Of a stretch of DNA of 39,428 nt, positions 18,295 to 27,683 are shown in pieces; position 1 is the first letter of the stretch; every line of letters starts with the position of its first letter. Below the pieces are notes generated by a model. The model saw nothing but the letters and a program-made list of their open reading frames with translations, made no database searches and was not told where the DNA came from. Origin of the DNA: a virus. Position numbers and translations under genes: made by a program. Where the stretch lies: the IMG/VR virus record IMGVR_UViG_3300047557_001008, positions 1-39,428 of that record. One strand, given 5' to 3'.

Positions 18295-20163
18295 CTATCC
18301 GTATGTCTGTTGCCATTGTTCTGCAATGGCTTCATCTAAGTTAATTGAGAATCGTCTCTCTGTCTGTGCTCTAGTAGCCCAACGGTTTTGCATCCATCTG
18401 GCTGACTGTGAGTTCTGTTGCATCAACTCGCGTACACGAATCACTGCAAACCATAGAGCCATCACACAGTCGCTAGGGTTTCTAGTCTCAGGCTTCCAGG
18501 TAATCAACTGCTGTACCAGAGCCTTAAGTCCTTCGCTACCTTCATTGCTTGGTAGTTCTATTGAGTTGTTATCTTGGAATCTTCCATCTCTAAGGCTACC
18601 AAAAAGACTTGCCATAGAAGCCACACCAAAGCTAGTATCCCACTTATTCTTACCAGTGAAGTGAGAGTTGAGTTGGCACCCATACATCGAGAGCCAGTTA
18701 CGCAAGTCGTCATCGAGTGCGTATGCTTTCTGGTGTGCATTGATTTCAATTCTTAACTCTTGTGGTTTGTATCGCTGTACCCAATCTTCAATCAGGGCAC
18801 GAATCTTCATAGGTGTAGGCTCAGTCATGTTTACACAGTCGAGAATGTAAATCATACTGTCTTGTCGGTTATAGGTCAAGACCACCGCTGCCGTGTTACC
18901 CGTCATCGCAGGGTCAAGACCAATAACCGTATAAGCAGATTCTAAATGCTTGGGGTGGCCCGGAGTACCTGGTTTAAGCGGTCCGCGCTTTCGCATACCG
19001 TTGACACATCCTGCAACTGCTGCTGGCGAAAAGATAGCGTCTTCGACGACGTCTTCTTGTTGGTAAACCATTGCCCAGACAGAAGGCGCCACTTCGCTTC
19101 GTCTAGTGAAGAGAGAAGGGCCGTCCCACTTGGGGTAGAGTCCTTGTTCATTTGCTTCATCTTTCTCGCCTTCGGGCCTATCCGTCCATGGCCAAAGGGT
19201 TTTCCAATTCTTAGGTTTCTCATCAAACTCAAGTACGGCAGGTTGTGCAAAGTATGTGAACGGGGATTTGCCACCAGTCCATTGCTGACCGTCTCGAATC
19301 ATCTTATACAAGTCTACGGGAGCAACACGGGTCCCTACGATAAGTAGTTTCCCGTGTCGTCCTAAGCGTGTGATGACTTCTTTCTGAAGCCATTCAATTT
19401 GCTTCTCCCACTCGTGGGCATTGGAGTTCATCACAACATCGTCCAGGATAATCAAGTCGGCACGAGCACCGTAAATCTGTGAGCCAAAGCCTAGGGCTTG
19501 CACCGTAGGGTCTTTCTCGCCAGAGTCTCGTCCGCTTCCTAGATAAATCATGTCGGCAGACCACGTCTGTGAATCTGCTTTGTATCCACCATTCGGGCCA
19601 AAGGCCGTCTGGAGCTTAATCCAGTTAGGGTGGGAAAGTCGTGTCTTGATGGCGCTTAAGAACTTGCGGGCCATACCCTGAGTCTTAGAGACTACGATGA
19701 TTCTTACATTCGGGTCTATGGCTAGTCGGTAAGTCACATAGTTAATCGTGATGACGGTAGACTTAGCGTGCTCGGGTGGAACATTAATCAGGACTCGGTT
19801 AGCTGCGCCGGGCTCGTAAGTCATAGCTGGGTGTAGCCAGCGAGGCTCGCGCCCCTCAATCAAGTCTACCCAATCCTTATGATGGTCAAAGAGCTTGGTA
19901 TCAAGGAACTGCTCAGAGAACTCCTCAAAGGTTATATCCTTCAGGTTCTTCAAGTCAGCCTTGACGCCCTTGCCTTCTAGGCGGGCGGCATCGGCTCGTT
20001 GTTTAAAGTCTTCATCCTTCATCGTCCATTGACGGAAGGTAACCTCATTGCGGTTGACAGAGCCCATAGCCTGGGTGATGGTACTACCCTGGGCCAGCAT
20101 CAGGAGTACCTTCTCCTTAGCCTCGTGCATAGGGATGTCGACCTTACCTGGCTTTCGTCCCAT
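18295..20163 (-). CDS. terL: Terminase large subunit with N-terminal HTH-like segment
   Basis: A 622-aa packaging motor. Residues about 10-65 look like a helix-turn-helix DNA-recognition segment (VLLMLAQGSTITQAMGSVNR, TFRQWTMKD) of the sort usually found in small terminases. The ATPase has a Walker-A-like NVPPEHAKST (127-136) and Walker B LIILDD (237-242). The RNase H-like nuclease begins with GLDPAMTG (415-422, D417 catalytic). The start follows GGAGGACTGACT, a strong ribosome site. It is the first gene of the late leftward unit. The HTH segment may replace a separate TerS. Confidence 0.92.
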   Translation of the reverse strand: MGRKPGKVDIPMHEAKEKVLLMLAQGSTITQAMGSVNRNEVTFRQWTMKDEDFKQRADAARLEGKGVKADLKNLKDITFEEFSEQFLDTKLFDHHKDWVDLIEGREPRWLHPAMTYEPGAANRVLINVPPEHAKSTVITINYVTYRLAIDPNVRIIVVSKTQGMARKFLSAIKTRLSHPNWIKLQTAFGPNGGYKADSQTWSADMIYLGSGRDSGEKDPTVQALGFGSQIYGARADLIILDDVVMNSNAHEWEKQIEWLQKEVITRLGRHGKLLIVGTRVAPVDLYKMIRDGQQWTGGKSPFTYFAQPAVLEFDEKPKNWKTLWPWTDRPEGEKDEANEQGLYPKWDGPSLFTRRSEVAPSVWAMVYQQEDVVEDAIFSPAAVAGCVNGMRKRGPLKPGTPGHPKHLESAYTVIGLDPAMTGNTAAVVLTYNRQDSMIYILDCVNMTEPTPMKIRALIEDWVQRYKPQELRIEINAHQKAYALDDDLRNWLSMYGCQLNSHFTGKNKWDTSFGVASMASLFGSLRDGRFQDNNSIELPSNEGSEGLKALVQQLITWKPETRNPSDCVMALWFAVIRVRELMQQNSQSARWMQNRWATRAQTERRFSINLDEAIAEQWQQTYG

Positions 20164-20353: not shown

Positions 20354-20494
20354 CCCTAATATATTTTTATTTTAGGGGTATAATGTCCGATTTGTATATA
20401 TATGAGGGGGGCTTATAACAGAAATTTTTAGGGGGACTATATGTATATTATATGTCGCTGATTTATCAAATGCCCCCTCAAAGTTCCGCACCGA

Positions 20495-20527
20495 CCTGAG
20501 AGTTTCCTGAGAGTTTCCTGAGAAGGG
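20495..20527 (+). repeat. Three tandem 11-bp units at the late transcription start
   Basis: CCTGAGAGTTT occurs twice exactly and CCTGAGAAGGG once, at 20495, 20506 and 20517, with an 11-bp period. The third unit overlaps the expected start site (about 20523) of the leftward consensus promoter. The core CTGAGA is the same as in the far end of the ten-unit array at 20642-20751, where it lies on the other strand. Confidence 0.85.
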
Positions 20528-20529
20528 GC

Positions 20530-20558
20530 ATTATACCATGACTTCTGTATCTTGTCAA
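20530..20558 (-). promoter_or_regulatory. Late leftward promoter, perfect sigma70 consensus
   Basis: On the minus strand TTGACA (20558-20553) and TATAAT (20535-20530) are separated by exactly 17 bp, so both hexamers and the spacing match consensus. The direction and position fit the start of the late operon that begins with terminase. Repeat arrays on both sides suggest that this strong promoter is repressed early. Confidence 0.85.
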
Positions 20559-20582
20559 GCAATAAAAATGTGATTTCTGTCA

Positions 20583-20598
20583 TAGAACAAGTGTTCTA
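20583..20598. promoter_or_regulatory. Palindrome with GAAC-N4-GTTC core (SOS-box-like)
   Basis: TAGAACA-AG-TGTTCTA has 7-bp arms. Its core GAAC-AAGT-GTTC fits the LexA box form GAAC-N4-GTTC known from Gram-positive bacteria and actinobacteria. It lies 25 bp upstream of the -35 of the late promoter. A host LexA site is inferred; a site for another dimeric regulator is equally possible. Confidence 0.45.
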
Positions 20599-20641: not shown

Positions 20642-20751
20642 ATATTCTCAGGTAATTCTCAGACTTCTCTCAGTATTTTCTCAGGTTCTATTTACCTACT
20701 GTTCACCTAGAGTTCACCAACACTTTACCTTCCGTTCACCTTCCGTTCATC
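20642..20751 (-). repeat. Ten tandem 11-bp units (iteron-like array)
   Basis: Read on the minus strand, 110 bp divide into ten units of exactly 11 bp. The first six nucleotides of the units are GATGAA, GGTGAA, GGTAAA, GGTGAA, GGTGAA, GGTAAA, CCTGAG, ACTGAG, TCTGAG, CCTGAG, each followed by five variable bases. All keep T-R-A at positions 3-5. There are no gaps, and the units on each side do not match. The helical phasing implies a protein binding one DNA face cooperatively. Confidence 0.85.
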
Positions 20752-20822
20752 TTGGGGGTCTAGTATGCGTCTTGTCATTGAATATCGGATAGATACTCAC
20801 GACACGCCGATTAGATTAGATT

Positions 20823-20850
20823 TTGCGAAATCGTAAAGTCATGATATAAT
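20823..20850 (+). promoter_or_regulatory. Rightward promoter, TTGCGA-N16-TATAAT
   Basis: The -10 TATAAT at 20845-20850 is perfect and the -35 TTGCGA at 20823-20828 matches four of six. It would start transcription near 20857 and give a roughly 180-nt structured leader before the GTG at 21041. It is the most likely first promoter of the rightward unit. Confidence 0.55.
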
Positions 20851-21040: not shown

Positions 21041-21370
21041 GTGACACGACCCTACGCGGGGTCGGGTGTAGGTGTAAGACAACTGCGTACTGTACGGGCT
21101 AGTCGCCCGTGGGGTAAGCGCAACTATAACCTAACGGGCGCACAATGCTCACCCGTTACAGTTACGGACAAGCACGGGCATACCCGTACTGTTGCGCCCC
21201 TAGTACATGGACAAGTCGTACGCCTAGCAAAACGCACTAACCGCGCCATCATGGCAGGAGAGCGCGTACTAACGCCCGACTTGACAGAAGCACAAGAGAG
21301 TGCTATACTAGCACAACTACACGCTAACGCGACACCACGCGCCAAAGCGTTCAACATACACGACAAGTAA
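21041..21370 (+). CDS. Hypothetical early protein, 109 aa
   Basis: A GTG start is preceded by AAGGAAAGGAGAGAGAA. The protein is basic and Thr/Arg-rich (VRQLRTVRASRPWGKRNYNL), with a middle that reads VTVTDKHGHTRTVAPLVHGQ and a C-terminal helix (EAQESAILAQLHANATPRAK). No cysteine cluster and no family recognised. As the first gene of the rightward unit it is a candidate immediate-early protein, perhaps the factor that binds the 11-bp arrays, but it shows no clear DNA-binding fold. Confidence 0.6.
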   Translation: MTRPYAGSGVGVRQLRTVRASRPWGKRNYNLTGAQCSPVTVTDKHGHTRTVAPLVHGQVVRLAKRTNRAIMAGERVLTPDLTEAQESAILAQLHANATPRAKAFNIHDK

Positions 21371-21382
21371 TAGGGGGTAGCC

Positions 21383-21547
21383 ATGACACCACGCATGGCA
21401 GAAATCCTAGCCCACTATGAGCGCCTAAACCGCGCCCTAGATAGGCAGGAGAAGCGAGAGATTTTCGGGCAGAAGGTACGCCTAGCACGGGCAGACTTGA
21501 AGCCAGCAAGTAAGCACACGCGACTTGTGGGCTTACAGGGTAATTAG
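21383..21547 (+). CDS. Small early protein, 54 aa
   Basis: The ATG at 21383 lies five bases after TAGGGGG, the ribosome-site form used repeatedly in this unit. The product, MTPRMAEILAHYERLNRALD then RQEKREIFGQKVRLARADLK and a short tail, is a charged helical peptide. It is too short for confident family assignment. Coding use and spacing match the neighbours. Confidence 0.5.
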   Translation: MTPRMAEILAHYERLNRALDRQEKREIFGQKVRLARADLKPASKHTRLVGLQGN

Positions 21548-21554
21548 TAGGGTA

Positions 21555-21598
21555 GTCGCGCACCGATAGACGGCAAGGGTTCATGACCCTAGCGCGAC
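21555..21598 (+). other. Two-helix stem-loop between small early genes
   Basis: GTCGCGC (21555-21561) pairs with GCGCGAC (21592-21598), and AGGGT-TCATG-ACCCT (21576-21590) forms an inner hairpin stacked next to the 3' arm. The shape recalls an acceptor/T-arm minihelix, but the invariant T-loop A58 and a CCA end are missing. It may end or stabilise the first short transcript. A second small inverted repeat, GCGGA-AAGTA-TCCGC, follows at 21601-21615. Confidence 0.4.
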
Positions 21599-21619
21599 AC
21601 GCGGAAAGTATCCGCATAC

Positions 21620-21648
21620 TTGACACGCCTTAGGGGGTGTGCTAGAAT
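21620..21648 (+). promoter_or_regulatory. Rightward promoter TTGACA-N17-TAGAAT
   Basis: The -35 at 21620-21625 is consensus, the spacer is 17 bp, and the -10 TAGAAT at 21643-21648 differs at one base. The start should fall near 21655, only a few bases before the ATG at 21658, so the mRNA of the 46-49-aa membrane protein may be leaderless or nearly so, as is common in actinobacteria. Confidence 0.75.
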
Positions 21649-21798
21649 ATGGACAACATGCTAGAACTTAGCGTGAGTTCTTGGGGGATAACTCTCTCAA
21701 CCGACCCACTATATTTCAACCTATCATGGGGCTTGACAATAGTGCTAATCGGTGCTATAATTGCCCGTAAGATAGTAAAGGTTAGGAGAAGCAAGTGA
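21649..21798 (+). CDS. Tiny single-span membrane protein, 49 aa
   Basis: ATG at 21649 (or 21658, better placed with respect to the promoter) to TGA at 21798. The product has a polar N-terminus, one transmembrane segment (YFNLSWGLTIVLIGAIIA) and a basic C-terminal anchor (RKIVKVRRSK). The stop overlaps the next start as GTGA. A consensus promoter lies just upstream and another lies inside the gene. Function unknown; a small early membrane protein such as an exclusion or host-takeover factor is conceivable. Confidence 0.55.
   Translation: MDNMLELSVSSWGITLSTDPLYFNLSWGLTIVLIGAIIARKIVKVRRSK
21733..21761 (+). promoter_or_regulatory. Rightward promoter, perfect TTGACA-N17-TATAAT
   Basis: Both hexamers (21733-21738 and 21756-21761) and the 17-bp spacing are exact consensus. 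The promoter lies inside the tiny membrane-protein gene and would start near 21768, 27 nt before the GTG at 21795. Confidence 0.8.
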
Positions 21799-21995
21799 GT
21801 GACAGCGACTACATGCTAGTGCTAACGCCATCAGAATTAGACACGCTACGCACAAGCCTACGCAACGAGAGCGCAAGGCTAAAGGCGCAAGGCTTCACAG
21901 GGCTTCAAGCCTATGTGGATAACCTACGCGATAAGATTTCCAACATGATGATTGACCAAAGTTATGCTAGGCTTGACAACAAGTCAAGCGTATGA
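21795..21995 (+). CDS. Hypothetical early protein, 66 aa
   Basis: A GTG start overlapping the previous stop, with AGGAGAAGCAA upstream. The protein is helical (TPSELDTLRTSLRNESARLK, GLQAYVDNLRDKISNMMIDQ) and resembles a small coiled-coil or helical-hairpin protein. The end of the gene contains the -35 and spacer of the next promoter. No family recognised. Confidence 0.6.
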   Translation: MSDSDYMLVLTPSELDTLRTSLRNESARLKAQGFTGLQAYVDNLRDKISNMMIDQSYARLDNKSSV

Positions 21996-22001
21996 TAGAA
22001 T
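21973..22001 (+). promoter_or_regulatory. Rightward promoter TTGACA-N17-TAGAAT before the amidoligase gene
   Basis: TTGACA at 21973-21978, a 17-bp spacer and TAGAAT at 21996-22001 overlap the last codons of the 66-aa gene. Transcription would start near 22008, about 20 nt before the amidoligase start, making this the dedicated promoter of the amidoligase/amidotransferase pair. Confidence 0.75.
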
Positions 22002-22029
22002 ACGGCAACAAGTAAATCACTAGGGGGTG

Positions 22030-23244
22030 ATGATAGTGCCGATAGATGATGAAGATACGCCCGAAGTAGTATCGTGCTCCGAGTGTCACAGCGAGATAAA
22101 CGCTGGCGACTCGCTCACGATAGACAACGGCGACTCTGTATGCCAAGATTGCTACCGCACATGCGAGCGTTGCGATTGGTCGGGTACAGATAGCGACTCA
22201 TGGTACACAGTACAGGATAGTTCATGGTGCGAAGGTTGCTGGGAGAATAACTCGTTCTACTGTGACAGGTGCGAAGAAACCTTTGACGACGACCGCACGG
22301 GTAGTTACAATGTAGAGCGTTCTCGCTGGTGCGAGTATTGTACTAACGACAATGCTTCGTATTGTGACGATTGTGAAGAATACTATGCTGACGGCGACAG
22401 TTGCCCATGTGGCGGTGGTGCTGGTAAGATACATCAGTATTCTTACAAGCCTAACCCTGCCTTTCATGGCGTTGACCCTAACGGGTTATACATGGGCTTT
22501 GAGTTAGAGATGACCTTCCCCGACATTACTAACAACCTATACAGCATGGCGGTTAGCGGTGTTGAGCCACTAGAGCAAGATAATGTGTGCTATCTCAAGT
22601 CGGACGGCTCTATTGAGGGTACGGGCTTTGAGTTAGTGACACACCCACATACGCTTGGTGCGTATGAGCAAGCCAAAGATTTATGGAATTACATTGAGCA
22701 CCTACGCACGAGCTACGGCGCTCGCTCATGGGATACCGAAAGTTGTGGGCTTCATGTCCATGTGTCCCGTGCTGCGTTCAAGTCGGGTGCTCACACGCAT
22801 AGGTTCTTATCACTAATCTATAAGAACCCACGCGAGATGATGAAGTTAGCAGGGCGTAAGAACTCACGCTTCGCTCGCTTTGATGATGTGTACAAGCCCG
22901 ACGAGTGGGGCTTACCACACTTCTCCTTACAGGAGAAAATACATAGGGGTTATCGCACCGAGCGTTATGGTGCGGTCAATACCAACAACGACTACACACT
23001 AGAGTTGCGCTTCTTTCGTGGCAACATGAAGCGCGAGGGCGTTATGACCGCCCTAGAATTGTGCCACGCTTCGGTAGAATATACCCGTGACTTGTCCGTG
23101 TCTGATGTAAAGTTAGGCATGCTCAAGTGGGAATGGTTCTACGATTGGGTGTCCGCTAACAACGGGCTATACCCTAACCTATACCTACGCATGTCCAAAG
23201 TGCCTAGCGTATCTCTTGACAGCAAGCCACTAATCAACGCCTAA
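22030..23244 (+). CDS. Amidoligase (COOH-NH2 ligase) with four N-terminal zinc modules
   Basis: A 404-aa protein. Residues about 16-127 hold eight regularly spaced Cys pairs, giving four C4 LIM/treble-clef-like zinc sites. The catalytic part has the marks of the glutamine-synthetase-like amidoligase family (Pfam Amidoligase_2): GFELEM near 156, KSDGSI near 190, FELVT near 200, GLHVHV near 240 and LELRFFRG near 326. These enzymes are predicted to use ATP to join a carboxyl group to an amine. The start is ATG 22030 after TAGGGGG; GTG 22036 is the alternative. It is followed after nine bases by a class-II glutamine amidotransferase, the association expected for this family. Substrate unknown. 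Confidence 0.8.
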   Translation: MIVPIDDEDTPEVVSCSECHSEINAGDSLTIDNGDSVCQDCYRTCERCDWSGTDSDSWYTVQDSSWCEGCWENNSFYCDRCEETFDDDRTGSYNVERSRWCEYCTNDNASYCDDCEEYYADGDSCPCGGGAGKIHQYSYKPNPAFHGVDPNGLYMGFELEMTFPDITNNLYSMAVSGVEPLEQDNVCYLKSDGSIEGTGFELVTHPHTLGAYEQAKDLWNYIEHLRTSYGARSWDTESCGLHVHVSRAAFKSGAHTHRFLSLIYKNPREMMKLAGRKNSRFARFDDVYKPDEWGLPHFSLQEKIHRGYRTERYGAVNTNNDYTLELRFFRGNMKREGVMTALELCHASVEYTRDLSVSDVKLGMLKWEWFYDWVSANNGLYPNLYLRMSKVPSVSLDSKPLINA

Positions 23245-23253
23245 GGGGGTGTT

Positions 23254-24150
23254 ATGTGTCTATTAGTTGTCTGTAAGCCTAACGCTATACCAAAGCGAGA
23301 GGAACTTACAGAAGGCGCATGTAGTAACCCACACGGATACGGGTTCGCCATGATAGTTGACGGAAAGATATTCCGTTATCGTACCATGTCTGCTCGTAAA
23401 GCCGTAACAAAGTTTCTTCACATGCGCGAGCAATACCCAAAGGGTTATGCTATATGGCATGCCCGTTACGCTACACATGGCGTAAAGAATGAAGATAATT
23501 GTCACCCATTCCAAGTGGGTGATGATGTTGATACTGTACTAGCGCACAATGGTGTGCTAGATACTTTCATAGGGAAAGATGACAAGCGTAGTGATACGCG
23601 TATCTTCGCAGAGGATACCCTACCTAAACTTGGTGGGGTTCGCGCTTTGGAAGATGAGAATCTGTACCGCATGATTGAGGGGTGGGCTAGCGGTTCTAAG
23701 ATAGCCGTGCTCACCGCCAATCCTAACGCTGAGTACCAACTCTATCTCATCAACGAGAGACTCGGTACTTGGGACGACAACGGAGTATGGTGGAGCAACT
23801 CAAGTTACAAGCGCACTACCTATACTACCTACAAGGCAGAGCCTAAGCCGTCAGTAGATACGACTTCACTAGACTACGACTTAGAGCAAGCCTATTACGC
23901 TGAGTTGTTAGAACATAACGACAGAGAAGGCTATCTCATCATAGACCAATGCCCTATGTGTGAAGCCTTAGTAGACATAGATGTATCCATAGAGTATTGC
24001 CAATACTGTGAAGCATGTATGTCTTGCCAAGCACACTTTATAAATTGTATGTGCTACACACCCAGCTCCGCTAAGCCTAAGCACAAAGAGTTAGACTTTG
24101 ATAATCAGTGGGTTAGGGTGTATAATAAGTACCAAGATACACTAATCTAA
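23254..24150 (+). CDS. Class-II glutamine amidotransferase with C-terminal zinc ribbons
   Basis: A 298-aa Ntn-hydrolase. Cys2 follows the initiator Met and would be the N-terminal nucleophile. Family features follow in order: HGYGFAM (27-33), WHARYATHG (68-76), HPF (84-86), LAHNGVL (96-102) and SDTRIFAE (113-120). Residues about 233-267 hold CPMC, CQYC, CMSC and CMC, two likely zinc sites not typical of GATases. It would release ammonia from glutamine, or remove or transfer a gamma-glutamyl amide. It lies directly behind the amidoligase with AAGGGGGTGTT before ATG, so a two-step pathway is likely. Confidence 0.8.
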   Translation: MCLLVVCKPNAIPKREELTEGACSNPHGYGFAMIVDGKIFRYRTMSARKAVTKFLHMREQYPKGYAIWHARYATHGVKNEDNCHPFQVGDDVDTVLAHNGVLDTFIGKDDKRSDTRIFAEDTLPKLGGVRALEDENLYRMIEGWASGSKIAVLTANPNAEYQLYLINERLGTWDDNGVWWSNSSYKRTTYTTYKAEPKPSVDTTSLDYDLEQAYYAELLEHNDREGYLIIDQCPMCEALVDIDVSIEYCQYCEACMSCQAHFINCMCYTPSSAKPKHKELDFDNQWVRVYNKYQDTLI

Positions 24151-24173
24151 ACACCAACTAGGAGAGCAATTAC

Positions 24174-24434
24174 ATGACAAAAGAACAACTCGTTGGCTTT
24201 GCTGACGAACTACGCGATATCGCCTATCTGCTAGAGCAGAAGGCAGATGAACAAGAGAACTACTACCCACGCGGTACAATTCTCAAGGCACTACCCGTAC
24301 AAGGACGCTTCAAGCCAAAGTCTATGTGGGTTTCACTAGGCGACGGCACATACCGCCATCTCAATGGTAAGAAGGGACTAGTCACCACACATGACAGACT
24401 CGACGGATACACAAGCGTTATCTTCAGCGCCTAA
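24174..24434 (+). CDS. Hypothetical protein downstream of the amidoligase pair, 86 aa
   Basis: The ATG follows TAGGAGAGCAATTAC. A helical N-terminus (KEQLVGFADELRDIAYLLEQ) is followed by a beta-rich part (GTILKALPVQGRFKPKSMWV, GTYRHLNGKKGLVTTHDRLD). No cysteines or membrane segments. Because it comes right after the amidotransferase it might be a partner or substrate, but nothing in the sequence proves that. Confidence 0.6.
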   Translation: MTKEQLVGFADELRDIAYLLEQKADEQENYYPRGTILKALPVQGRFKPKSMWVSLGDGTYRHLNGKKGLVTTHDRLDGYTSVIFSA

Positions 24435-24636
24435 TACAGATGTAGCAGTAGCCGAGCCACTAGCAGGTATGCTGGTGGCAGGTTACATTGTGCTCGTCTT
24501 TCCCAAAGAAACTTCAGAGCGCTCTGTATTTTATGGAGCCTTTGATACAATAGACGACGCTCGTAAGTGGGCGGAGTTGCTGACAGGGTTAGTTGTTATT
24601 CAACCCTTCTATTCACCAGCGATGAACAGAGGATAA
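24391..24636 (+). CDS. Hypothetical protein, 81 aa
   Basis: It overlaps the previous gene by 44 nt. The conserved-looking part starts near residue 30 (GYIVLVFPKETSERSVFYGA, FDTIDDARKWAEL) and ends FYSPAMNRG. Short proteins with Y..F.T.D.A..WA..L followed by Y.P..N.G are common in actinophages and seem to form a small alpha/beta fold of unknown role. The first 25 residues may be non-coding if a later start (ATG 24469) is used. Confidence 0.6.
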   Translation: MTDSTDTQALSSAPNTDVAVAEPLAGMLVAGYIVLVFPKETSERSVFYGAFDTIDDARKWAELLTGLVVIQPFYSPAMNRG

Positions 24637-24637
24637 C

Positions 24638-24967
24638 ATGAACGGACTATGTTCAACCCACCCCAATCCTGATATGTGGTTTCCTGAAGAGCAACCACTT
24701 CAGCGCAAGGGTGGTAGACCAAGCAGAGCTAACCACCGGCGACAGATTGAGAACGCAATCAAGGCGATAGCAATCTGTAGTTACTGCCCTACCCGTGCCC
24801 GTTGCCTTGAAGAGGGTATGAAAGAAGAGAACATAGAGCATGGTATCTGGGGTGGTATGCTTGCTGGAGACAGAATAATCTTGTCACGAACACGCAAGAC
24901 AGGTACAGTTAGAGAGCAAGCAATCAACTTCGCAGAGGGAGTAAAGGCATGGCAAAGTATCTCGTAA
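24638..24967 (+). CDS. whiB-like: WhiB-family iron-sulfur transcription regulator
   Basis: A 109-aa protein with the four conserved cysteines of WhiB proteins (C5, C47, C50, C56) and the turn GIWGG at 69-73, followed by a basic C-terminal region (SRTRKTG). N-terminal P.MWFPE also fits. WhiB proteins bind a 4Fe-4S cluster and act with the principal sigma factor of actinobacteria. The phage copy likely redirects or represses host or phage promoters, as shown for the mycobacteriophage TM4 WhiB. An unusually long Cys5-to-Cys47 insertion carries a basic GGRPSRANHRRQ. Confidence 0.85.
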   Translation: MNGLCSTHPNPDMWFPEEQPLQRKGGRPSRANHRRQIENAIKAIAICSYCPTRARCLEEGMKEENIEHGIWGGMLAGDRIILSRTRKTGTVREQAINFAEGVKAWQSIS

Positions 24968-25350
24968 GATATGGCATAGTGCTAGCGCTTGTTGCGCTAT
25001 TTACTGTGGTAATTGTCGAGCCATTGAAACCACCACATCAGTATAATCATCAGACTACTTGGTCTGTTGATGACAGTAAGGCTTACGCCTACGACCAGCT
25101 TGGCGTATGGCGTGACAAGCAGGTAGCATGTCTCAATAAATTGTGGGGTAAAGAATCAGCATGGAACCCTGAAGCATACAATAAAATAAAAGTCATGGGT
25201 AAAAATGCTGGCGGTATTCCACAACTACTTGGGCTCAACCCTGCGACACCCCCAACCAAGCAAATAGACAGGGGGCTTGAGTATATCTATCATAGATACT
25301 CAACCCCTTGTCGTGCTTGGGCACACTTCAAGAAACATGGGTGGCACTAA
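24949..25350 (+). CDS. Membrane-anchored lytic transglycosylase-like protein
   Basis: A 133-aa protein. Residues 5-24 form a hydrophobic signal anchor (VRYGIVLALVALFTVVIVE). The domain contains CLNKLWGKESAWNPEAYN with E69 as likely catalytic acid, NAGGIPQLLGLNPATPP and a C-terminal RYSTPCRAWAHFKKHGWH, the pattern of short actinobacterial SLT/RPF-like muramidases. It lies in the early rightward unit, far from the endolysin/holin cassette. It may be an accessory lysin acting from the membrane or a wall-remodelling enzyme. It overlaps the WhiB gene by 19 nt. Confidence 0.75.
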   Translation: MAKYLVRYGIVLALVALFTVVIVEPLKPPHQYNHQTTWSVDDSKAYAYDQLGVWRDKQVACLNKLWGKESAWNPEAYNKIKVMGKNAGGIPQLLGLNPATPPTKQIDRGLEYIYHRYSTPCRAWAHFKKHGWH

Positions 25351-25652
25351 TGGGTAAATCATATGGCTCTATCAGAGAGAGAATAAATCTTTGTTCTTCC
25401 TGTGGCAAGCCTGTCGTGGACGACAACTACTACACGATAACAACTAGATACAATAGCGGTAAGTACATGTACCACATGGACTCCGCAGCATGCGCCAACG
25501 CAGACGAGCTAGCAAAGGATTGGTATAGACAGAATGACAGAACAAGAACCAAGACATATAACAGAACTAAAACCCGACTACAAGACGGCGATGGATATAC
25601 GGGGGACACCGACGACAGTGTGCCCATGTGGCTCAGAGATATGGAACCTTAA
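25350..25652 (+). CDS. Hypothetical protein with N-terminal CxxC, 100 aa
   Basis: The start at 25350 overlaps the previous stop as TAATG and is preferred to an upstream in-frame start within the transglycosylase gene. The protein has LCSSCGKPVVDDNYY, resembling half a zinc ribbon, then YHMDSAAC, which could complete the site, and a polar tail rich in Arg, Lys and Thr. The 3' third overlaps the next gene in another frame. Function unknown. Confidence 0.6.
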   Translation: MGKSYGSIRERINLCSSCGKPVVDDNYYTITTRYNSGKYMYHMDSAACANADELAKDWYRQNDRTRTKTYNRTKTRLQDGDGYTGDTDDSVPMWLRDMEP

Positions 25653-25767
25653 GACTATCTTTGACAAAGATGATGGCACGATAGAGTTGTACTTTGTGGA
25701 TATGGAATGCGCTAACTGTGGTACATTAGCTACAGCACCCGTGCCCGAGAATGGTGTACTAGAATGA
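25534..25767 (+). CDS. Small zinc-ribbon protein, 77 aa
   Basis: The visible motif is CPCGSEIWNLKTIFDKDDG followed by ECANCGTLATAPVP, a CxC...CxxC zinc-binding knuckle pair. Very similar small proteins are widespread in actinobacteriophages. The function is unknown; nucleic-acid or protein binding is likely. It overlaps the previous gene by 119 nt in a different frame; both frames carry conserved-looking Cys motifs. A later start (ATG 25591) would reduce the overlap. Confidence 0.6.
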   Translation: MTEQEPRHITELKPDYKTAMDIRGTPTTVCPCGSEIWNLKTIFDKDDGTIELYFVDMECANCGTLATAPVPENGVLE

Positions 25768-26551: not shown

Positions 26552-26679
26552 AAATAAATAGATATATGCTAGCAGAATTGCTGCGTATGTCTCTTTATCT
26601 GATACCGCTATTCATGTTCACCAGTTTCTTCGGACTTGTTTTCGGAGTCTGGCTCTTCGCTATCTTGTTTGTCAGCTAA
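26545..26679 (+). CDS. Possible hydrophobic mini-protein antisense to the sigma-like gene
   Basis: An open frame runs from TTG 26545 (or ATG 26566) to TAA 26679. From the ATG it encodes 37 residues, MLAELLRMSLYLIPLFMFTS followed by FFGLVFGVWLFAILFVS, essentially one or two membrane spans. It overlaps the 3' end of the convergent sigma-like gene by about 72 nt. There is no strong ribosome site. It may be the last member of the rightward unit or a chance frame. Confidence 0.28.
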   Translation: MVKINRYMLAELLRMSLYLIPLFMFTSFFGLVFGVWLFAILFVS

Positions 26680-27294
26680 GTCTTCATCAAGGTACGGCTT
26701 ACGCCCACCCAACTTATTTACAAGACGCTGTATCGCTCGCTTGTGCCTCATGCGAGCAGCGTCCTCTGTACCAAGAGATAGATAGTTGGCTATCTCCTTG
26801 AAGTCTAATGACTCAGCATGGCGGAAGAATAAAATCTTTCTATCCTCCTTGGAAAGTTTCCAATATGCTGAGTCTACTTCAAGTAATAGCACCTGAATAT
26901 TGCCGCCCTCTGATGGGGCGGAAGGTCTACCACCAGCACTATTAAGATTCAACTTCGGTGCGATATGAAAGTTACCCATCAACACAGTAGGTAACAGCAC
27001 CTCAACTAATCCTGGTTCATAATAATATAAATCACTTACATCATAGCCAACAGTCTTGGCTTTCCACTTCTGACAATAATCCAACGCTTCATTACGCAGG
27101 CTACGATAGATAAGATTCTTAGCATCCTTCTCACCGATTGCTTCCCATGTATCTAACTTATTTGGGTGTTCAATGAACCATTTATATAATGCTTGTCTTA
27201 TATCTTCAAGCTCACATATGGGAAACTTCTTGTGGTATTCAGCAGCGACTGCGTCGACTACATACTGCCAGCGTTCTATTCTATCCCAGTTCAT
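26608..27294 (-). CDS. Sigma-factor-like protein (sigma70 regions 2 and 4)
   Basis: A 228-aa protein. ATG 27294 overlaps the upstream stop as ATGA, the usual coupling here, and is preferred to ATG 27312. The N-terminal half resembles sigma region 2 (ELEDIRQALYKWFIEHPNKL, NLIYRSLRNEALDYCQKWKA). Residues about 147-195 resemble region 4 with a helix-turn-helix (KLSKEDRKILFFRHAESLDF, KEIANYLSLGTEDAARMRHK). The C-terminus is an acidic tail (EEPDSENKSEETGEHE). It may direct host RNA polymerase to phage promoters or act as a non-sigma HTH regulator. It is the last gene of the leftward replication unit. Confidence 0.7.
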   Translation of the reverse strand: MNWDRIERWQYVVDAVAAEYHKKFPICELEDIRQALYKWFIEHPNKLDTWEAIGEKDAKNLIYRSLRNEALDYCQKWKAKTVGYDVSDLYYYEPGLVEVLLPTVLMGNFHIAPKLNLNSAGGRPSAPSEGGNIQVLLLEVDSAYWKLSKEDRKILFFRHAESLDFKEIANYLSLGTEDAARMRHKRAIQRLVNKLGGRKPYLDEDLADKQDSEEPDSENKSEETGEHE

Positions 27295-27683
27295 GGCTTG
27301 TCGTTCTTCCATTTCCTTGTACCAGTTAGCAAATCTTCTACAGTAATTAGATAACCTTTAGATTTATTCGGTGGTATCTCACACGAAATCTCCCTACCCA
27401 ATTGCTCAACAGTTTTCTTTAGGATATGAGTCGGCACAATAAATGTGGACTGTTCAAGTACGAACGCCCAGTATGCTGCCTCAGTTACAGATAATCCTGA
27501 AGGTTCCCATGAACCTGACTTCATATACCAACACTCAGTCTCAATGTAAATGTTGTTGGTAATCCACCACTTCCTGTCGCGCTTGACTTCTACTGTGCGC
27601 CCACCGGTAAGCAACTCTTCAACAAGTTGTTCACCCTTGCGCCCGTATCCAAAGTCAATATCGAATGAGGAGTTCTTTGCCAT
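27291..27683 (-). CDS. PD-(D/E)XK-like nuclease domain protein, 130 aa
   Basis: The N-terminus SSFDIDFGYGRKGEQLVEEL, then TVEVKRDRKWWITNNIYIET, contains a likely E-x-K catalytic motif (EVK) and a second acidic residue (IETE). Small proteins of this FD.D..YG..GE..V..LL type are frequent in actinophages and fit the restriction-endonuclease-like fold. It lies between the sigma-like gene and the Nmad1-like gene. It may process recombination or replication intermediates; catalytic activity is not proven. Confidence 0.65.
   Translation of the reverse strand: MAKNSSFDIDFGYGRKGEQLVEELLTGGRTVEVKRDRKWWITNNIYIETECWYMKSGSWEPSGLSVTEAAYWAFVLEQSTFIVPTHILKKTVEQLGREISCEIPPNKSKGYLITVEDLLTGTRKWKNDKP

Follow-up and report, generated by a model that had tools for sequence, protein, structure and literature searches.

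Results

The window, by which we mean the whole 39,428-bp virus record analysed here, carries a 110-bp repeat array between a late operon read leftward and a WhiB-containing gene block read rightward, with promoter-like sequences on either side of the array and, towards the terminase gene, a LexA box and a second, shorter array (Table 1). A sigma-factor-like protein is encoded further along, at 26608-27312. The closest named relatives are the isolated phages LanE43AprE7 and AprF5 (terminase 78% identical), for both of which a 'Ca. Planktophila' bacterium ('Ca. Nanopelagicales' order) served as isolation host (PMC10202952); going by these relatives, the host of the window phage would belong to the same group. 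An array at the corresponding place is not recognisable in either isolate. For comparison with host regulation we searched 121 genomes of one order of small-genome actinomycetes (all 1.0-2.2 Mb, with loci mostly of 44-50% GC), an order that, from the size, GC content and relatedness of its genomes, appears to be Nanopelagicales.

Table 1. Positions of the array, its constituent units and the surrounding genes and signals in the window.
Feature	Position	Strand	Details
Terminase large subunit, first gene of leftward late operon	18295..20163	-	phrog_38, E 2e-65
Second PhoP-type array, three TCTCAGG units	20495..20523	-	starts at inferred +1 of leftward terminase promoter
Consensus sigma-70 promoter TTGACA-17-TATAAT, toward terminase operon	20530..20558	-	12/12 consensus matches
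LexA box TAGAACAAGTGTTCTA	20583..20598		upstream of leftward promoter, ~25 bp from terminase -35
Ten gapless 11-mers	20751-20642	-	GATGAACGGAA, GGTGAACGGAA, GGTAAAGTGTT, GGTGAACTCTA, GGTGAACAGTA, GGTAAATAGAA, CCTGAGAAAAT, ACTGAGAGAAG, TCTGAGAATTA, CCTGAGAATAT
Four PhoP-type (M. tuberculosis PhoP orthologue) units, TCTCAGN-N4; predicted	20646..20685	+	cores 20646, 20657, 20668, 20679
Six PHO-box direct repeat units (RegX3/Streptomyces-PhoP type), GTTCACC-N4; predicted	20690..20751	+	cores 20690, 20701, 20712, 20723, 20734, 20745
-10 hexamer TAGTAT	20761..20766	+	exactly 9 nt past last core; inferred activator-dependent rightward promoter
Second rightward promoter-like site TTGCGA-16-TATAAT	20823..20850	+	10/12 matches; downstream of array
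Rightward block: small ORFs, amidoligase-like, class II glutamine amidotransferase, WhiB, transglycosylase-like	21041..25767	+	

The ten gapless 11-bp units that a first-pass annotation had described are borne out by a read-out of the minus strand, where T-R-A stands at positions 3-5 of every unit (10/10) and the division into classes of six and four holds as claimed. Identity at lag 11 within the array is 0.667, compared with 0.291 +/- 0.044 in 2000 dinucleotide-preserving shuffles scanned over lags 5 to 30, none of which matched the observed value at any of these lags (0/2000), and the array gives the strongest lag-11 signal within the 39-kb window. While the 11-bp period stands, the proposed split of each unit into six fixed and five variable bases does not, the units consisting instead of a 7-bp core and a 4-bp spacer; likewise, the minus-strand reading describes the units correctly, but the meaningful strand is the plus strand, on which TCTCAGG-N4 occurs four times and is followed by GTTCACC-N4 six times (cores 20646-20751).

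The latter six units correspond to the PHO box of S. coelicolor, which was defined as 11-nt direct repeat units, GTTCACC (PMC4415409). Scored with weight matrices built from host promoters only, they reach 59.4 bits with the host pstC/pstS/ppk promoter matrix, where the best of 60 shuffled windows gives -3.0. In the 121 host-order genomes the GTTYAYC triple is found at 45 sites as opposed to 16 for the reversed pattern, and nearly all of the 37 host-order loci examined carry it directly 5' of pstC, pstS or ppk, the exceptions being three aquaporin loci and one further locus. A RegX3 orthologue is present in each of the six host genomes inspected (best PDB match RegX3, E 2e-103). Judged by sequence, these units form a PHO box, predicted to be bound by the host phosphate-starvation regulator. 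Across all viral contigs the plain PHO pattern is in modest excess over its reversed control (36 vs 21), and matches to the strict GTTCACC triple in general genome contigs come mostly from other taxa. Among the latter, Leeuwenhoekiella genomes (Bacteroidota, L084-L138) are rich in GTTCACC-N4 triple repeats, which are spread over many loci and represent an unrelated use of the repeat. Two further PHO-like accumulations were encountered: one 39.6-kb viral contig has eleven near-identical units at its edge (L172:9-129), and another viral contig has four arrays inside 1 kb (L145:8428-9334).

RegX3 is the mycobacterial name of the phosphate regulator known as PhoP in Streptomyces; the M. tuberculosis-type PhoP, despite its name, is not that phosphate regulator. 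It is this second regulator to which the four TCTCAGG units point: they score 45.6 bits with the host phoP promoter matrix (best of 60 shuffled windows, 13.9). The pair TCTCAG-N5-TCTCAG occurs at 10 sites in the host order versus 2 for the reversed pattern, and six of the ten lie 5' of a response-regulator gene, a PhoP orthologue, whose product has M. tuberculosis PhoP as its best structural match (PDB 3r0j/5ed4, E 9e-90; next family 1e-52). Since the pair pattern was taken from the phage arrays, the six phoP promoters selected by motif are not independent members of the PhoP matrix; the independent members are the promoters of four host phoP orthologues found by domain search alone, all four of which have the TCTCAG repeat in the same place. 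In all, the motif precedes 10 of 10 PhoP orthologues inspected, four of them found without it. It was the pair pattern, a two-unit form of the phage-derived consensus, that recovered host phoP promoters; sets of three CTCAG units, one mismatch allowed, had produced 5 matches in the host order, about the chance expectation. No gene of the PhoP cluster was found in two of the six host genomes inspected (G151 and G190), in which RegX3 and MtrA orthologues are present; hosts lacking PhoP could alter the behaviour of array-bearing phages.

M. tuberculosis PhoP binds as a cooperative tandem dimer to directly repeated 7-bp TCACAGC motifs whose 4-bp spacer is strict, and binds three to four motifs more tightly than two (PMC4832192). 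The recognition helix of host PhoP is that of M. tuberculosis bar a few changes, including Asn212->Gly and Ser216->Thr, both invariant in ten orthologues. In the PhoP crystal structure Asn212 and Ser216 jointly contact, through water, the A of motif position 3 (PMC4832192), the position at which the host motif has T and the M. tuberculosis motif A; this covariation of helix residues 212 and 216 with motif position 3 is suggestive rather than conclusive. MprA was also considered as the TCTCAG regulator, for which the literature gave no useful support and sequence comparison indicated PhoP. We thus take the four units to be sites for the host orthologue of M. tuberculosis PhoP, again with binding predicted. 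Each of the ten array units scores high for one host regulator matrix and low for the other, so that the split into six and four is a split between two regulators.

Downstream of the PHO units, the hexamer TAGTAT is weak as a -10 element, and it lies at a preferred position. In six phages that each have six PHO units (the window, L011, L015, L140, L159 and L171) the -10 score is maximal at a gap of 9, with the hexamers TAGTAT, TACTCT, TAGGGT, TAGTAT, CATTAT and TATTAT located 9 nt past the last core; among host promoters, the -10 of ppk peaks at the same gap and that of pst at 31, which is 9+22 nt. The PHO part consequently has the position of an activator site relative to the -10 in six phages as well as in host ppk promoters. 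The order of array and then -10 is common to the window and its five relatives, and in L171 the six-unit array is followed, as in the window, by the amidoligase-like, amidotransferase and WhiB block. Across the six phages the spacing and the cores are kept and the spacer letters drift (90% core identity, 56% for spacers), in line with the first-pass expectation for related phages; differences within the cores comprise 60 transitions and 5 transversions, mostly at positions where the motif is tolerant. The array had originally been placed next to the late promoter, and a promoter does lie nearby, but the PHO part faces the rightward operon, away from the late (terminase) promoter.

On the terminase side, the three-unit array at 20495-20523, which the first-pass annotation had not connected with the ten-unit array, scores 36.0 bits with the host PhoP matrix against a shuffle maximum of 21.5, and its first unit starts 7 nt past the last base of TATAAT. 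The LexA-box pattern GAACANNTGTTC occurs in 118 of the 121 host-order genomes compared with 2 for the reversed pattern, the host palindrome adjoins lexA and recA in the loci checked, and LexA-like boxes similar to that of the window occur in many relatives; the late promoter of this presumably lytic phage may thereby sense host DNA damage. Two other features of the region were noted. Upstream of the terminase gene, many relatives (L002-L083) have CRP-like TGTGA-N6-TCACA palindromes, degenerate in the window at about 20568-20583; ten host genomes show no enrichment of this motif (1 palindromic site vs 2 for the control), for which reason we make no claim for host CRP as their binder. Between the arrays and the terminase gene, window positions 20406-20436 and 20460-20483 are strongly conserved blocks in the relatives inspected, reading CTTTGA-N12-TAAA and CACCCNAAAATTTTCTGTTATA on the minus strand, and are candidates for a late promoter element or cos site.

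Arrays of the CTCAG type extend well beyond the window: they are found in 12 of 13 relatives with a terminase of ~90% identity or more and enough upstream sequence, and the array pattern is strongly enriched in viral sequence, with 104 stretches vs 8 for the reversed control. TCTCAG arrays stand alone in many phages and are flipped in others, and PHO units are absent at the corresponding place in many close relatives. In-register junctions of PhoP and then PHO units, exactly 11 bp apart, recur in L141 (twice), L234 and L291, with an overlapping version in L278. L141, a 95.8-kb phage contig, has several CTCAG arrays, two of which end in PHO units, and may possibly possess a phage-wide PhoP/RegX3 regulon. 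The presence of several arrays in a single phage, and of lone or flipped arrays in others, led us to drop the idea of CTCAG as a cos or terminase site. In the 121 host-order genomes no hybrid was found that joins a full TCTCAG core to two intact PHO units, matches to the hybrid-array search being mostly ordinary PHO triples, and we found no report of a two-regulator in-register phage array in the open-access literature searched. As a separate observation, eight stretches (L012, L013, L016, L246, L252, L263, L275 and L303) show Fur/DtxR-like palindromes (TGAGAATCGTTCTCA, ATGATAATCAT, TATGATNATCATA) beside or in place of CTCAG arrays, which suggests that further host regulators have been plugged in.

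Discussion

Here we propose that the 110 bp form a composite operator for two host OmpR/PhoB-family response regulators that would activate the rightward operon under phosphate starvation or stress, a reading to which we give a probability of roughly 80%. It draws on motif identity, host context, the regulator orthologues, promoter geometry and conservation, as laid out above. The array does have the appearance of the helical-period, cooperative-binding type of operator beside a promoter that the first-pass annotation envisaged, but the predicted binders are host proteins rather than the small early proteins and sigma-like protein of the phage, which that annotation had put forward for binding assays.

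With regard to binding, the direction of the effect and the conditions, we infer the following course. The host RegX3 orthologue would occupy the six GTTCACC-N4 units and the host PhoP orthologue the four TCTCAGG-N4 units, both in a head-to-tail arrangement in which each 11 bp takes one subunit, so that phosphorylated regulators would line the array without a break. They would recruit RNA polymerase to the -10 box, which follows the last unit at 9 nt, and the WhiB-containing operon would be switched on when the host is phosphate-starved or stressed. At the terminase start site, PhoP bound to the three units there may hold back or retime late transcription, together with LexA. The phage, in other words, probably reads the nutrient and stress state of its host before expressing one gene block. 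In cyanophage S-PM2d some predicted PHO boxes failed in EMSA (PMC10976474); predicted boxes are thus not always bound, and those described here call for the same caution. More tentatively, and with the balance somewhat against it, RegX3 and PhoP might co-assemble in register as one mixed filament on phage DNA, constituting a two-input gate for phosphate starvation and a second stress, a phage-made hybrid not found in the host genomes searched.

Could a single regulator suffice? RegX3 alone might occupy the whole row of ten, in which case the four TCTCAG units would be weak PHO units at the flank of a 'complex operator'; indeed, one phase runs across the junction, a TCA core is common to both unit types, and complex PHO operators with variable units are known in Streptomyces (PMC4415409). 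Yet the PHO matrix gives the TCTCAG units -3.9 to -7.8 bits, the PhoP matrix 10.6 to 12.0, and TCTCAG arrays also stand by themselves in many phages and 5' of host phoP genes, which makes this reading improbable. Somewhat better placed, though still unlikely, is the idea that the array is a repressor site or a decoy, through which the phage titrates host regulators or stays silenced under stress. The three PhoP units over the inferred leftward start site would suit repression, as PhoP's own repeats in the M. tuberculosis phoP promoter lie downstream of +1 (PMC3413638), but the PHO part has activator geometry, the -10 following at 9 nt both in the six phages and in ppk promoters of the host group, and a decoy would not need a fixed distance to a -10.

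The first-pass annotation had instead drawn a parallel to ParR and parC and suggested an origin or segregation role. A run of 11-bp units close to a promoter and a terminase gene would indeed fit a phage-protein target such as a parC-like centromere, a replication origin or a packaging site, but we consider this very improbable: the units match host PHO and PhoP boxes, with a host-promoter context and response-regulator orthologues to go with them, several such arrays occur in one 95.8-kb phage, PHO units are missing from the corresponding place in many close relatives, and no ParR/ParM-like genes were found among the window proteins scanned against Pfam and PHROGs. The composite operator for RegX3 and PhoP remains the reading that we favour.

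If the composite operator acts as proposed, at least three host switches (RegX3, PhoP and LexA) feed into the control of these phages, and infection should then depend on phosphate and stress, which would tie phage activity to lake chemistry in a way that can be tested. Few freshwater bacteria are as abundant as the Nanopelagicales, and the timing of gene expression in their phages has hardly been studied. Furthermore, the in-register hybrid array offers a natural test of whether two OmpR-family regulators co-assemble on DNA, and the TCTCAG motif supplies a predicted DNA target for a PhoP-type regulator of the host order.

With parC of plasmid R1, the array shares 11-bp direct repeats beside a promoter but differs in sequence and in predicted binder, and the host-regulon match explains its units. 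Closer in biology are the PHO boxes of cyanophages P-SSM2 and S-PM2d, lytic aquatic phages that likewise use the host PhoB/PhoR system via PHO boxes (PMC10976474); those boxes are short, variable and located before pstS and other genes, whereas here an actinophage carries a ten-unit, two-regulator array. The M. tuberculosis PhoP repeat (TCACAGC-N4-TCACAGC) is similar in its 7-bp motif, strict 4-bp spacer, tandem copies and orthologous regulator, and in that the host motif also precedes the regulator's own gene; the core here, TCTCAGG, departs from it at positions 3 and 7, and in the recognition helix of the host protein Asn212 is replaced by G and Ser216 by T. The actinobacterial PHO box (Streptomyces PhoP, mycobacterial RegX3) has the same GTTCACC core in 11-nt direct repeats upstream of a -10, and the array's motif is also found 5' of the pst and ppk genes of the host group; unlike it, the array resides in a phage, runs to six units before a WhiB-containing operon rather than phosphate genes, and is fused in register to the predicted sites of a second regulator. 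By its sequence, then, the array is a PHO box plus a PhoP operator on every testable feature, and while the use of host PHO boxes by phages is already known from cyanophages, the pairing of predicted sites for two regulators in one array appears to be new.
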